Below are positions 58,416 to 64,000 of a stretch of DNA of 64,000 bases, piece by piece. Position 1 is the stretch's first letter. The number at the start of each line of letters is the position of its first letter. Under the pieces are notes generated by a model. The model did not search any database. It was given only the letters and a program-made list of their open reading frames with translations, and was not told where the DNA came from. The translations under genes and the position numbers were made by a program. This DNA is from Acidobacteriaceae bacterium (GTDB lineage Bacteria; Acidobacteriota; Terriglobia; Terriglobales; Acidobacteriaceae): contig JANXYB010000127.1 in NCBI GenBank assembly GCA_025350325.1, positions 1-64,000 on the forward strand. The letters are read 5' to 3'.

Positions 58416-58758
58416 TCCGGCTAGCTAAAATTCTAAGATTAGAAATTCTGCAATAGATCGACCCCAATGCCTTAGAGCATCCCTTAATGCTGTTTGCCGG
58501 TACACTCAATTTTCTCGGTCTGCGGTTCACCTGGTATATGGCTCCGCTCAGACCCTTATGCTGCCCATTCACTGTCAGACTTTGCCCTGTGTCCGGCCGC
58601 GCGATTAACATACTAGTGTTCACGTCGGACGCAATCTCCTAACGCTGATTGTCTCCCCAATACGGGAGTGGAAGTCTTATCAGAGCGCCACATGCATCTA
58701 ACCAGACGTGGCAACAGTCCAATACATGTAAATCCCTTCAATGGGGAGGAATACGAAG
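58416..58758. other. 343 bp leader/intergenic region before metK
   Basis: No gene is visible. Two small hairpins occur near the end: CTCCC (58653-58657) with GGGAG (58664-58668), and GCCAC (58687-58691) with GTGGC (58708-58712). I looked for a SAM-I, SAM-II or SAM-IV aptamer core and did not find the conserved segments, although a long untranslated leader in front of metK is where one could be expected. Confidence 0.45.
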
Positions 58759-59928
58759 TTGAGCGATCGTTTCTTGTTTACCTCTGAGTCCGTTACCGAA
58801 GGGCATCCGGACAAGATTGCCGATCAGGTTTCAGATGCCATTCTGGATGCCTGCCTTGAGCAAGACCCCTACAGCCGCGTAGCCGCAGAAACACTGACAG
58901 CGACGGGTCTCGTCGTTATTGCGGGTGAAATCACGACCAAGGCGTACGTAGATTTTCAAAGCCTGGTGCGGGGCGTCATTGCCTCCATCGGCTATGACAA
59001 TGCGCTGTATGGTTTCGACTCGAACACCTGTGCGGTGATCTCGACCATCAACAAGCAGTCCGGGGATATCGCCCAGGGCGTTGACACGGGGGGCGCGGGC
59101 GACCAGGGCATGATGTTCGGATACGCCTCCAACGAGACTCCCGAACTGATGCCGGCTCCTATCTCGCTTGCGCACAAACTTACCCGCCAATTAAGTGCGG
59201 TACGCAAGAGCGGCAAGCTGCCCTATCTGCGGCCCGACGGCAAGAGCCAAGTCACAGTCGAGTACGACGAGAACGGCAAGCCCGCCCGCATTGATGCTGT
59301 CGTCATCAGCAGCCAGCACGCGGAGCATATCAGCAACGAAGAATTGCACGCTGACATTCTCAAGTACGTCATTCAGGCGGTGCTGCCTGCGGCGTGGCTC
59401 GACGAACACACCAAGTACCATATCAATCCCACGGGAAGATTCGTTATCGGCGGCCCCATGGGCGACACCGGGCTTACCGGCCGCAAGATCATTGTGGACA
59501 CCTACGGCGGAGCGGGTCGTCATGGCGGCGGCGCGTTCAGCGGCAAGGATCCAACCAAGGTCGATCGCTCGGCGGCATACGTCGCGCGCTATATTGCCAA
59601 GAACATTGTCGCCGCTGGACTAGCCGAGAGAGCCGAAGTGCAGTTGGCATATGCCATTGGCGTGGCGGACCCCGTCAGCGTGCGCATTGAAACCTTTGGC
59701 ACTGGCAAGGTGGGCGACGCCAAGCTCACGGAACTAGTGCGCAAGAATTTCTCGCTTACGCCCAAGGGCATCATCGATAGCCTCAACCTGCGGCGCCCGA
59801 TCTACCGCGCGACCGCAGCTTACGGCCACTTCGGACGCACCGAGCCGGAGTTCACCTGGGAAGCGACGGACAAAGCTGCGGCATTGGCAGAGCAAGCCGG
59901 CGTGGCGGTTCCGGTAAAAGCGAAATAG
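58759..59928 (+). CDS. metK: S-adenosylmethionine synthetase
   Basis: 389 aa. [20 protein letters not shown] is the ATP and methionine N-terminal motif; [26 protein letters not shown] and [16 protein letters not shown] are the other signature loops. It makes SAM from ATP and methionine; trmD in this window is one user of SAM. A TTG at 58759 is preferred over ATG 58741, because the GGGGAGG Shine-Dalgarno sequence lies inside the longer version. A terminator follows. Confidence 0.97.
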
Positions 59929-60120: not shown

Positions 60121-60336
60121 ATGCTTGATTCAATTCAGAGAAAGCGATACGCGAAGAGGTTCTCGGCGATCGAGTCGAGTTTCCGGATTGAAGATATGGA
60201 TCCTAGTCATGACTCTATCTATCAAGAAGCCAAAACCCATATCTTAGCGGGCAGAATGACTCCAAAGCAGGCTCTGTCGTTCGTGATTAAGCAGAGTGAA
60301 AGTCGAAACTGTAAAGAAACAGCCGCTTCCGCTTGA
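60121..60336 (+). CDS. VbhA-like antitoxin of a Fic toxin
   Basis: 71 aa, with GGAGG 8 nt before the ATG. Residues 19-34 (SSFRIEDMDPSHDSIY) resemble the inhibitory-helix region of VbhA (SxxxE with G/N next); here the motif is SFRIED, with D at the last position. The C-terminal half (HILAGRMTPKQALSFVIK) is the conserved helix pair of this antitoxin family. It overlaps the fic start (TTGA) as in other vbhA-fic pairs. It would block Fic AMP-transfer by holding an arginine away from ATP. Confidence 0.72.
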   Translation: MLDSIQRKRYAKRFSAIESSFRIEDMDPSHDSIYQEAKTHILAGRMTPKQALSFVIKQSESRNCKETAASA

Positions 60337-60969
60337 CATCCAAGGAGAGCGACGATCCGTATTGCTATCCCGGAACAACAGTTTTGCGTAACAAGTTCAA
60401 CATCCGAAACGAAGATGAATTAAAGGCGACTGAGGCCCGCGTGGCTGCCGTCGCTTTATTTGTTTTGGAAGACGAACCGTGGCATGGACCTATCGACGAG
60501 GCTCGTCTGCAAGCTGTGCAGCGGGCCATCTTTCAAGACGTATATGACTGGGCCGGAAGGTATCGGGTTGGTATCGGTCGAATGACCAAGGGGCGCGCCA
60601 TTGGCTACACGGTCACCTATGGCAATTCCGAATTCGTTCCCGGTGAAATGGCTCGAATCTTTACTGAGCTTCGTAATGAAAATTACCTCCGCGCCTTGGA
60701 CCCCGACCAATTCTCATGCCGTCTTGCTTACTTTTATAGTGAAATAGATTCGACCCATCCGTTTCGCGACGGAAACAGGTACGTTGCGTCAATTTTCTAC
60801 GGATCTCGCAAGAGCAGCAGGATATGAACTCAATTGGGAAGCGACTGGCCTCACCGAAGATTCTATAAATAGTCTGTACATAGCGCGGGATCTGGCGTTT
60901 CAACGCAAGCAATACCGCAAGCTTGAACTCATTATCCGTAACAATCTTACGTCGTTGAATTCAGAGTGA
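60333..60969 (+). pseudogene. Fic domain AMP-transferase toxin, frameshifted in the active site
   Basis: From TTG 60333 the frame reads a normal Fic domain (YDWAGRYRVGIGRMTKG, then AYFYSEIDSTHPFRDGN). HPFRDGN at residues 142-148 is the start of the HxFx(D/E)GNGRxxR motif. After AAC (60774-60776), AGGT precedes ACG TTG CGT CAA; the expected six bases for G-R are four, a two-base deletion. From 60781 the other frame continues TLRQFSTDLARAAGYELNW and ends at 60969, exactly as an intact homologue would. The original frame ends at 60827 with an unrelated tail. The toxin is probably inactive, unless the shift is a sequencing error or is bypassed. Confidence 0.82.
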
Positions 60970-61083
60970 AGCACTGTATGCTTTGAAGAGAATTGAAGCC
61001 CGCTTCGCTCTCCCGCTCCTCGCTGCGGCTGGATGAAATAGAATTTTCCAGAGTTTATTTGCTTGACAGATAGAGGAGCATGT

Positions 61084-61854
61084 ATGCGTTTTTTTGCTTT
61101 TGCAGCACTTCTGCTTGGTGCCACTGCGCTGGTCGCGGGCCAATCGGCCGTGCCCTCGACTGACGCTTCTGCCACGCAGTGGGATTACGCGGGAAAGCGC
61201 GGGCCGCTGATATGGGGCAAGCTGGATGCGGCGTACAAGACGTGTTCGCAAGGCCATCAGCAGTCTCCCATCGACATTCGCGGTGCGCACTTGAACAAGG
61301 GGCTGCAGCCAATCGAATTTCACTATATTGCCGGCGCTGTGAAGCTTGAGAATGACGGCCGCGCGATCCTGGTGCATGTAAATCCGGGCAGCTACATTGT
61401 CGTGGGTGGAGTGCGCTACGAACTGCAGCAATTCAGTTTTCATCACCCCGGCGAAGATGCGGTCAAAGGCAAACTGGTCGACATGGGCGTGGAGTTGCTG
61501 CACAAGAGCAGCGATGGCAAAGCGGTTGTGATCGAGGTGCGCATGGGCGAGGACCGCGGCGCGCCCAATGCGGTGCTGGCGCAATTGTGGCCGCTGCTGC
61601 CAAAAACTCCGGGCGCAACCGCCAAGGTGGCCGAAATGGTGAACCCGGCAGGCTTTTTGCCGTCCGACCGTGGCTACTGGACCTACATGGGTTCGTTGAC
61701 GGTGCCGCCCTGCACGGAGGGTGTGCGCTGGTTTGTCTTCGAAGAGGAGATAAGCGCGAGTCGCGACCAGTTGCGCAGCTACACTGCGCTTTTCAGAATA
61801 AGCTCACGTCCGCTGCAGGACACGCATGGACGACGCATCGAAGCCAACGAATAG
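61084..61854 (+). CDS. alpha-carbonic-anhydrase-like secreted protein with degenerate zinc site
   Basis: 256 aa. Signal peptide (AFAALLLGATALVAGQ), then WDYAGKRGPLIWG, QQSPIDIRGAHL and GSLTVPPCTEGVRWFVF, all strong alpha-carbonic anhydrase motifs. In active enzymes the zinc sits on three histidines, as in QFHFHxP...E and MExHFVH. Here the first is serine (QFSFHHPGED, Ser118; His120 retained) and the third is glutamate (VELLHK, Glu137). Only one of three ligands remains, though a neighbouring His121 is present. It may be a catalytically inactive carbonic-anhydrase-related protein or bind metal differently. AGAGGAG precedes ATG 61084. Confidence 0.88.
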   Translation: MRFFAFAALLLGATALVAGQSAVPSTDASATQWDYAGKRGPLIWGKLDAAYKTCSQGHQQSPIDIRGAHLNKGLQPIEFHYIAGAVKLENDGRAILVHVNPGSYIVVGGVRYELQQFSFHHPGEDAVKGKLVDMGVELLHKSSDGKAVVIEVRMGEDRGAPNAVLAQLWPLLPKTPGATAKVAEMVNPAGFLPSDRGYWTYMGSLTVPPCTEGVRWFVFEEEISASRDQLRSYTALFRISSRPLQDTHGRRIEANE

Positions 61855-61858
61855 AAAT

Positions 61859-62548
61859 TTAGAGTTGCAGCGGCCTCAGGCTTAAAAGCAAACCCTCGTC
61901 ATTGGCGAGGGTTTTTACTTTGACCCCGGTGACATCGGCGATCAAATAATGCGCGGCCGTCAGTGTTTCGATAGCGTGAGAAAACGTCGTCGCCACCACT
62001 ACGCATCCGGCGGCGCGGCCAGCCTTGACCCCTGGAGTTGCGTCTTCAAACACCACGCACTCTTCGGGGGCAAAGCCGAGTAGCGCGGCACCGGCAAGGA
62101 AAGGCGCAGGGTCTGGCTTGCCCGTGGTAACGGTGTCGGCCGTGACAATTCTGTCCGGCAAGGGGATACCGCCTTGAGCGAGCCGCACGCGCGCCAGCCG
62201 GTCCGTTGCGCTGGTCACGACTGTCCACCGATGGCGGGGCAGCGCCGCAAGCAGTGAGAGCACACCCGGCAACACTGAAAGCTCCTCGTTATCTGCAATT
62301 TCAATGTCTTCGATGATCTTCAGTTCTGCTGCACTGTCAAGGTCCGGGCGTAGCTGCGCAGCGGTCTCGATGGCACGGCGACCGTGCGCCATTTTGCAGG
62401 CATAAACGGGATCGACGCCGCGCAAAGTGGCCCATTTCGTCCAACTACGCTCGACTGAACCGATGGAGGAGATCAGAATTCCATCCATATCGAACAAAAT
62501 GCCTTTGCAGCGAATCTCGACGGAAGAAGCAACGATAAGAGGAGCCAT
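61859..62548 (-). CDS. HAD superfamily phosphatase (sugar-phosphate type)
   Basis: 229 aa. The nucleophile motif reads DMDGILISS (usually DxDGTLxDS), followed by VVTSAT (motif II), a lysine in TTGKPDPAPF (motif III) and VFEDATPGVKAGRAAG (motif IV). These fit beta-phosphoglucomutase-like or sugar-phosphatase members such as the YfbT group. An ATG at 62557 is also possible. Its stop lies 4 bp from the carbonic-anhydrase-like gene, on the opposite strand. Confidence 0.9.
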   Translation of the reverse strand: MAPLIVASSVEIRCKGILFDMDGILISSIGSVERSWTKWATLRGVDPVYACKMAHGRRAIETAAQLRPDLDSAAELKIIEDIEIADNEELSVLPGVLSLLAALPRHRWTVVTSATDRLARVRLAQGGIPLPDRIVTADTVTTGKPDPAPFLAGAALLGFAPEECVVFEDATPGVKAGRAAGCVVVATTFSHAIETLTAAHYLIADVTGVKVKTLANDEGLLLSLRPLQL

Positions 62549-62577
62549 AGAGTCCATTGTAGCGGCGTGTAATCGAA

Positions 62578-64000
62578 CTATTTTTTCACGATGGTCGCTG
62601 CGGGCGGGGTAAAGCTGACTCGCGGCGGGTTGCCCAGGGTGACCACTGTTTCAACCACGGTCTTGCGCCTGCCTTGTTGAACCTGGTTCTGCTTGAGCGT
62701 TGCGACTCCGTTGGCGATCTCTGCATCGCCGGACCAGTGATCGAAGCGAGCCAATGCCGGGGGGATAGGCTCGTCCAACTCATCTTCGCGGCGAACCACT
62801 GACCCCCGTCGCCAATCGAAGTGGAAAGTTCCTTTGGCTGAAGCACCCAGATCTTTGTCGGTAAAACCGGAGAGATCGACTTTGCCCGTGCCGTCGAGCC
62901 CGGTGCCGGTACACTGCAACCGAAGCAATCCGCAAAAAACTGCGGGACTGATCTCCCGAAACTCGCCTTCGAGGGAATAGGTGGGCTTATCTCCGTTGTT
63001 AATTTTGCCGGTCCCGTGAAGCTGTCCCCCGAGAATCCCTGCATCGAGGCTCGTCAAGTCTGCGCCCGTCTCGGTCACTTTGAGCGCGATGACCGCGTTA
63101 TGCAGCGTCACCGGACCGATCACGAGAGCGTCGGCTCTTACGGTGCCGATAAAGGATGGCCAGGCTGGTTTCGCCGGTGAACTCAACCGCGCAATGACCG
63201 TAGACAGCAACGATCCGGACTTGTGGGCGCCCAATAAAGCGGACTGTAGCGCGTCGGCGTTGAGGGTCGCAAATTGAAAATTTAATTGCGGCGGACACTC
63301 TGCTGGGGCTTCGCAGGCAGCCGGGACTTGCAGGCTCGCTGTCCCTTTAAGTGGTCCGTAGGAGAATGTCACCGGGTCCCAGCGCGGTGGGCCCGAGCCG
63401 ATATGCAGCGTGGCCTGCGGAATTTGAACCGCAGTGGCTAGCGCATCCGATTTCCAATTCGCATTGCGTAAAGTCACTGTACCGACGAGGCTATCTGACG
63501 AGAAAATTGCTGCCGACTGTGCGCCGGGCGCGGCAGATGCGGGTTGCGCTGAAGCGGTGCGCGCAAGGTCGGTGCTCGACGTCGAATCTAAAGCCGGTAA
63601 CCACGGACCCGCCGCACTCAGCTCGACAACCACTGGCTCTCCCGCGAACGCGTTCAGCGCAGCGGCGTCGGGCAAATTCGCAGCACGCGCAAATTCCCGC
63701 ATGCGCGCCACCGAACCGGGCCCGCGCACCGTAAATTGGTATCCCGCCAGCGCCATGTGAACCGTTACCAAAAGCGGGCTTACTGCGCCCGCCGACATTG
63801 CTACGGACGCGGCCAGAGTCTCGTGATCGCCAGCCGCTACCAACGCCGGTTGCAGTGTGATCTTGGGAATCTGCACAGGCTGGCTCAGGCCATCCCCACG
63901 CAGGACGAAGCCATCGACGACGAGGCTACCCGACAAGGCGCCATGCGCTGACTCTTTTGCTATAGGTCCCCTCGCAACTTGTACTTTGCTTGAGCGACGT
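62578..64000 (-). CDS. AsmA-like C-terminal region protein, truncated by the right edge
   Basis: The frame is open through the right edge; at least 474 codons are visible and the 5' end is missing. Long runs of beta-strand-forming repeats (TNxxLVIGPVTLHNAVIAL type) and segments such as TSLDAGILGGQLHGTGKI and YSLEGEFREISPAVFCGLL are typical of the AsmA C-terminal domain, which is linked to lipid transport or outer-membrane assembly. The last residues are VSFTPPAATIVKK. The N-terminal part, including any membrane anchor, lies outside the window. Confidence 0.85.
   Translation of the reverse strand, partial: RRSSKVQVARGPIAKESAHGALSGSLVVDGFVLRGDGLSQPVQIPKITLQPALVAAGDHETLAASVAMSAGAVSPLLVTVHMALAGYQFTVRGPGSVARMREFARAANLPDAAALNAFAGEPVVVELSAAGPWLPALDSTSSTDLARTASAQPASAAPGAQSAAIFSSDSLVGTVTLRNANWKSDALATAVQIPQATLHIGSGPPRWDPVTFSYGPLKGTASLQVPAACEAPAECPPQLNFQFATLNADALQSALLGAHKSGSLLSTVIARLSSPAKPAWPSFIGTVRADALVIGPVTLHNAVIALKVTETGADLTSLDAGILGGQLHGTGKINNGDKPTYSLEGEFREISPAVFCGLLRLQCTGTGLDGTGKVDLSGFTDKDLGASAKGTFHFDWRRGSVVRREDELDEPIPPALARFDHWSGDAEIANGVATLKQNQVQQGRRKTVVETVVTLGNPPRVSFTPPAATIVKK

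Follow-up and report, generated by a model that had tools for sequence, protein, structure and literature searches.

The window, a stretch of 64,000 nucleotides from an Acidobacteriaceae bacterium, encodes a protein with the predicted fold of an alpha-carbonic anhydrase (alpha-CA) in which two of the three zinc-binding histidines and the proton shuttle have been replaced. Most of its relatives in the genus have made similar swaps, some independently, and these follow a recurring pattern: positions 94 and 119 are replaced by mostly polar or acidic residues and His96 is retained (ligand positions 94, 96 and 119 are given throughout in human CA II numbering, and sites are written in that order, H/H/H being intact). 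The altered gene is under purifying selection and is not decaying. On the sequence evidence, we think it fairly probable that the window protein has kept the CA fold without catalysis and that its repurposed polar or acidic cleft binds a ligand or a partner.

The window protein scored 102.5 bits against PF00194 (Carb_anhydrase), well within the family given a curated cut-off of 27; a search against NCBIfam assigned no family. Its nearest solved relative by sequence is the bacterial alpha-CA 6im0 (E value 5.3e-53), and its predicted structure matched the same protein (Z 23.6 over 193 residues, rmsd 3.2), which supports a CA fold for a model with a mean pLDDT of 66.6 and with 87 of 256 residues below 50, in the stretches 1-4, 9-53, 55-65, 203-209 and 240-256. 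The protein is probably secreted and periplasmic, and Cys54 and Cys210 presumably form the disulfide of secreted alpha-CAs. The gene is the sole PF00194 match in the window's own genome, in which we found one beta-CA match.

Table 1. Features of the alpha-CA-like gene and its neighbours, in window coordinates
Feature	Position	Strand	Basis
metK, S-adenosylmethionine synthetase, frequent upstream neighbour of orthologues	58741..59928	+	PF00438/PF02772/PF02773; synteny
GAGGAG, likely ribosome-binding sequence, 5 nt ahead of ATG 61084	61073..61078	+	sequence read by eye
Alpha-carbonic-anhydrase-like protein, zinc site altered, 256 aa	61084..61854	+	PF00194, E value 3.8e-29; 6im0 the nearest solved relative
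Likely Sec signal peptide, residues 1-20 (MR...AGQ), without lipobox Cys	61084..61143	+	inferred from sequence and aligned N-termini
Cys54, invariant (28/28 aligned rows)	61243..61245	+	alignment
Arg93, proton-shuttle position His64	61360..61362	+	alignments
Ser118 (AGT), zinc ligand position His94	61435..61437	+	alignments
His120, zinc ligand position His96, kept	61441..61443	+	alignments
His121, position 97	61444..61446	+	alignments
Glu124, gatekeeper position Glu106, kept	61453..61455	+	alignments
Gly135, position 117	61486..61488	+	alignments
Glu137 (GAG), zinc ligand position His119	61492..61494	+	alignments
Thr206, gatekeeper position Thr199, kept	61699..61701	+	alignments
Cys210, invariant, partner of Cys54	61711..61713	+	alignment
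HAD-family phosphatase, frequent convergent downstream neighbour	61859..62557	-	Pfam; synteny
Large ORF, runs off the window, frequent downstream neighbour	62578..63999	-	ORF list; synteny

We aligned the protein with 6im0 and found no gap between the ligands; Ser118 falls at His94 and Glu137 at His119, as a preliminary description made from the sequence alone had proposed. The fold motifs that it reported as well kept, QSPIDI and GSLTVPPCTEGV, are present. It had also named a re-alignment that restores three histidines as grounds for refutation, and by eye no shift puts three histidines in register; intact H/H/H orthologues that are 67-72% identical to the window protein (L033, L037 and L042) align with it at the ligands without gaps. 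Where an active alpha-CA has three zinc histidines, the window protein has Ser118, His120 and Glu137. Both gatekeepers are present, and the shuttle histidine is replaced by arginine. Beyond what had been described, we noted Arg93 at position 64, Asp125 at position 107 and Gly135 at position 117, the last of which we take to lie in the second shell of the zinc site. Coral CAs with all three zinc histidines likewise vary at position 64, according to PMC4981384.

The preliminary description had further raised the possibility of a rearranged metal site involving the adjacent His121. This residue occupies position 97, where 66 of 81 clade rows have His, H/H/H members among them, and we rejected it as a replacement ligand. 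His121 is unlikely to be a new metal ligand because position 97 is histidine in intact members and its side chain should, from beta-strand alternation, face away from 94 and 96.

To place the altered site within the genus, we searched all 80 of its available genomes with the window protein, and 73 had a match. PF00194 matches were found in 72 of the 80, and the seven genomes without a match to the window protein include one that is 99% complete (G039). Readable orthologous copies numbered 72, from 71 genomes, a count that omits second copies in G014 (L132) and G004 (L158), both of them H/H/H, as well as fragments at contig ends in G044, G050 and G058. The site was H/H/H in 13 of these 72 copies and altered in 59. 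Position 94 was E in 22, D in 21 (thus E or D in 43), H in 14, T in 5, Q in 4, S in 3, N in 2 and A in 1; position 96 was H in 66 and R in 6; and position 119 was D in 28, H in 19, Q in 15 and E in 10. One histidine ligand was left in 50 of the altered copies, two in 5 and none in 4. The combination S/H/E, which had been put forward for checking as a possible clade pattern, was confined to the window protein among the 72 copies. One genome, G014, carries two alpha-CAs, an altered E/H/E copy (L019) and the separate-lineage H/H/H copy L132.

A contig scan yielded 28 loci, all from Acidobacteriota by title, including one from Occallatibacter savannae. Its protein (L039) is identical over the last 150 residues to L011 of genus genome G009, which ties the genus to Occallatibacter. 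An altered copy is found in a named strain, Occallatibacter savannae AB23, with the state E/H/E taken from the identical L011.

We also searched the genus for beta-CA (PF00484) and found matches in 72 of the 80 genomes. Among the eight without a match, several of which are incomplete, seven carry an altered alpha-CA. Four genomes that are at least 96% complete (G011, G026, G033 and G262) combine an altered alpha-CA with no beta-CA match.

We then surveyed the family using every PF00194 match of two draws of 200 and 397 genomes. Outside the genus this gave 61 rows from 17 genera (two rows being fragments of one genome), of which 47 were H/H/H and 14 altered; a separate family line had R/K/Q, R/R/Q, H/R/Q and N/H/H sites. 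As a control outside the family, we used a phylum-wide draw of 396 genomes, in which 36 of 38 readable copies were H/H/H (one of them, in G713, with a stop) and the others were one H/R/Q and one Q/H/H; this count omits one piece not covering the site and the short match G760:C119. A neighbouring genus coded g44 (14 loci between L074 and L169) had H/H/Q in 6, H/H/D in 1 and H/H/H in 7, and is possibly a first stage of zinc-site loss. A second, more distant Acidobacteriota alpha-CA lineage, and thereby another line of altered CAs, comprises L155, L173, L175, L176 and L205 (from genera coded g50 and g66, and from G486 of another family), with the sites N/H/H, R/K/Q, H/R/Q, R/R/Q and H/R/Q. Its members have a common PGE..A..GKRP.MS stretch, with GQRP in L155.

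To compare genomic neighborhoods, we took 55 of 62 loci with flanking sequence, one per identical-protein group, some of which end before a neighbour. At 39 of the 44 altered loci and 10 of the 11 intact ones, at least one of the three window neighbours was in the same arrangement. Upstream, metK was present on the same strand at 27/44 altered and 7/11 intact loci; downstream, the HAD gene was present on the opposite strand at 29/44 and 8/11, and the large ORF beyond it, which we take to be AsmA-like, at 34/44 and 6/11. Both metK and the HAD gene were found at 19/44 altered and 5/11 intact loci. Loci without any window neighbour were the intact L132 and the altered L038, L041, L100, L105 and L127. 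Altered and intact copies have common neighbours and are therefore orthologues, one gene changed in place; on the same evidence, we rejected a degenerate paralogue beside an active copy.

We next estimated how often the site had changed, using three trees from which the active-site columns were removed. Loci with identical C-terminal 150 residues were merged, reducing 131 loci to 99 proteins, and fragments were left out (L060 from the first quick tree; L133, L156 and L157 from the 133-row quick tree). On the careful tree of 92 rows, covering the genus and its near kin, parsimony gave 13 changes between H/H/H and altered states in either direction, and 23, 3 and 21 changes at positions 94, 96 and 119, respectively. 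The 133-row quick tree gave 14 changes; if the intact site was never regained, it gave 18 losses, falling to 16, 12 and 6 when branches with support below 80, 90 and 95, respectively, were collapsed. Because many deep branches are weak, we regard 6 losses as a cautious floor, one that counts the separate R/K/Q lineage too. Depending on the tree and row set, parsimony placed 17 to 23 changes at position 119. Both quick trees group the window protein in a set of nine, which includes E/H/E, T/H/E and one H/H/H, with an SH-aLRT of 95, and support for this set in the careful tree is 92/93. In the careful tree the window protein is in none of the starred sets that span at most half the rows, and the row nearest to it by path is the H/H/H copy L091. 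The 133-row quick tree flags long branches meeting in two places, L174 with the R/K/Q lineage and the outgroup with eight rows.

The suggestion that selection has kept the gene agrees with its low dN/dS. Among the closest 34 pairs listed, altered-altered pairs had dN/dS of 0.04-0.24, and the window gene compared with the intact L033 had a dN of 0.162 and a dS of 1.223. Over pairs with dS of 0.02-1.5, which are non-independent and noisy where dS is large, the median omega of the 143 intact pairs was 0.238 (range 0.059-0.648), and that of the 1297 altered pairs was 0.264 (range 0.042-0.781). No internal stops were found among the genus matches listed.

To determine which other residues accompany the altered site, we used a clade alignment of 81 rows (18 intact, 63 altered) and 220 columns, and called a column separating if its commonest residue was present in at least 85% of the intact rows and fewer than 60% of the altered rows. 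Nine of the 220 columns separated the two groups: 94 and 119, which themselves help define the groups, 92, 107, 64 and 199, and three others at window residues 149, 94 and 117. Positions 92, 107, 64 and 199 are part of the active site or of the shell around it. Ser197 and Trp209 were invariant in the clade, and Glu106 and Phe95 changed once each. Among 121 columns with at least 12 changes, only position 119 was confined to H, D, E, N, Q and C, its residues being D, E, H and Q only, in the 81-row clade as in the 72 genus copies; with S and T also allowed, one further fast column qualifies (D, N, S), and position 94 fails, having one row with Ala. The 28 genus copies with Asp119 have E117 in 26, H107 in 25, R64 in 18 and E198 in 14, and 23 of them have lost Thr199. 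We read this as a pocket that was remodelled rather than randomly decayed, with common descent accounting for part of the pattern. Independent-pair tests on the careful tree, with 10 pairs on starred branches, gave no significant coupling of an acidic residue at 117 with loss of His119 (4.6 pairs for, 0.6 against, 4.8 with no difference; median p 0.22), and for loss of His94 with loss of His119 gave 3.6 pairs for and 0.0 against (median p 0.125, 10 independent pairs). For the altered state against loss of His64 (0.5 to 0.3), Thr199 (0.2 to 0) and Leu198 (1.1 to 0), the median p was 1 with 9 pairs.

The history that we favor would begin with an H/H/H bacterial alpha-CA, presumably active, at an unchanged locus, followed by loss of two zinc ligands and the proton shuttle in the window copy. 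Because these are gone, the window protein probably does not hydrate CO2 and does not bind a catalytic zinc tightly. Purifying selection has kept the remainder of the fold and the gatekeeper Glu, so the protein should still have a function, and since the gene was retained with swapped ligands, this is probably a different job now. In the periplasm, the former active-site cleft, now polar or acidic, may hold a partner or small ligand; no partner or operon points to such a binding function. Given purifying selection together with the loss of two ligands and the shuttle, the best reading seems to be a role without catalysis that resembles the one of animal CA-related proteins, as the preliminary description proposed. 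CO2 hydration may be covered elsewhere, because a beta-CA match is present in the window's own genome and in 72 of the 80 genomes of the genus, but the altered alpha-CA in seven of the eight genomes that have none sits badly with a beta-CA having made the alpha-CA dispensable.

The strongest rival is that the pocket has become a different metal site, in which His96 and carboxylates at 94 and 119 bind Mn, Fe, Mg, Ca or weak Zn and support new Lewis-acid chemistry. Metal may indeed still be bound, given that position 119 is limited to D, E, H and Q and that His96 is present in 66 of 72 copies, and the 17 to 23 changes at 119 that arrived at only these four residues, along with E or D at 94 in 43 of 72 copies, favor such a site. 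The residues that accompany D119 (E117, H107, R64 and E198) also look like ordered remodelling, of which common descent explains part. The site would take the forms E/H/D, D/H/D and E/H/E, with E117 and, in some D119 copies, E198; it is more plausible for copies of these types than for the window's S/H/E, which would be a weak-site member. We nevertheless consider it rather unlikely: the serine that the window protein has at 94 makes a poor ligand, 11 of the 72 copies carry T, S, N or A there, 23 of the 28 D119 copies no longer have Thr199, a polar residue at 119 may merely suit a wet buried cleft, and the coupling of an acidic 117 with His119 loss was not significant in independent pairs. The wider proposal that the alpha-CA scaffold of the genus was repeatedly turned from a three-histidine zinc site into a one-histidine carboxylate site with another metal and a new periplasmic reaction also seems unlikely. 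If true, a single locus would show in nature how a metal site is rewired stage by stage, with H/H/H, H/H/Q, D/H/H, D/H/Q, E/H/E and E/H/D coexisting.

The window protein could instead have remained a carbonic anhydrase, of weak activity, that can do without tight zinc binding, for example by taking up zinc at high periplasmic concentration. Single-ligand variants of human CA II retain some zinc binding or activity, the equivalents of Glu106 and Thr199 are kept in the window protein, and an altered copy is what seven of the eight beta-CA-less genomes have. We find this quite improbable, as two ligands and the shuttle have changed together in the window protein and 50 of 72 genus copies have one histidine ligand only. 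PMC10175565 also counts against it, reporting the largest loss of zinc affinity for H94A and the lowest predicted zinc probability for H119N and H119Q. That the gene is relaxed and decaying on its way to loss, a periplasmic CA being no longer needed, would fit the seven of 80 genomes without a match (among them the 99% complete G039) and the wide variation of the zinc ligands. Such decay is very improbable given the dN/dS of 0.04-0.24 in altered pairs among the closest pairs listed, the lack of internal stops among the matches listed, the restricted residues at 119, and the concentration of much of the intact-versus-altered change at the active site. A sequence or assembly error, or a misalignment, has a negligible chance of explaining the site: the window assembly is a draft of 160 contigs, but the codons AGT of Ser118 and GAG of Glu137 would each need two base changes to become a His codon, and orthologues have related changes at the same positions. 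On the dN/dS values and the orthologue states, we rejected a pseudogene or a sequence error.

Comparison with known CA-fold proteins places the window protein nearest to bacterial alpha-CAs (Persephonella marina CA, 6im0; Neisseria gonorrhoeae CA, 1kop), by sequence and, for 6im0, by predicted fold, with the QSPIDI and GSLTxPPC motifs in both. Unlike these enzymes, it has two zinc ligands and the shuttle replaced, and 59 of 72 genus copies have an altered site. Zinc-site variants of human CA II were reportedly engineered by Kiefer and Fierke in 1994. Replacing a single ligand in CA II by design need not abolish zinc binding, which tells against the main reading. The D/H/H copies L015 and L018 look like natural counterparts of the engineered His2Asp-Zn site (PDB 1cvc), and the H/H/Q copies L027 and L080 of H119Q; the engineered proteins, however, are designed single changes in an active enzyme, whereas the bacterial copies have multiple natural changes. 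The CA-like domains of PTPRZ/PTPRG and vaccinia D8 also matched by structure, at 17-20% identity, and in these the CA fold serves binding, not catalysis. They bind partners, whereas the window locus gives no sign of one. Dioscorin (4twl), a plant storage protein, is a further CA-fold protein related in sequence to the window protein (E value 8.9e-27).

Like the animal CA-related proteins (CARPs) CA VIII, X and XI and the cnidarian CARPs, the window protein has the CA fold by prediction and lacks at least one zinc histidine (two in this case), and His96 is often kept in both groups. Two papers describe CA-related proteins without zinc histidines as animal proteins, among them CA VIII without one ligand histidine (PMC9032886) and cnidarian cytosolic CARPs with R-H-Q, in which the middle histidine is kept (PMC4981384). 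Of the 72 genus copies, 14 have the comparable x-H-Q, and the second family lineage includes R-K-Q and R-R-Q sites. Common descent with animal CARPs was not found: in trees built without animal CARP rows, altered copies lie among intact ones that share their family and locus, and the solved proteins closest to the window protein by sequence are bacterial. Unlike in animal CARPs, the change arose within a family of bacteria and where the intact gene lies, with E or D most frequent at 94 and D, Q or E at 119. The window protein is most likely comparable to, yet independent of, the animal proteins. Among the matches listed from the open-access literature, we found no account of bacterial alpha-CAs with replaced zinc ligands, and the consulted part of PMC6158936 holds nothing on the subject.

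The altered copies would be a bacterial counterpart of the animal CA-related proteins, and if they are inactive, the label 'carbonic anhydrase' for all PF00194 members is wrong for most genus copies. They also provide a good system for studying evolution, with one gene, mostly at one locus, in dozens of close species in which intact and altered states are interleaved. This opens questions about the order of metal loss, the later use of the scaffold, and whether a carboxylate site holds another metal.

Between metK and the alpha-CA-like gene of the window lies a Fic-domain ORF (60333-60970, plus strand; PF02661, E value 1.9e-9), whose nearest NCBIfam models, PRK10347 and VbhT, were both under cut-off. 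This Fic gene looks broken or mis-sequenced, because its frame breaks just past the HPFRDGN motif and the C-terminal part seems to resume in another frame.
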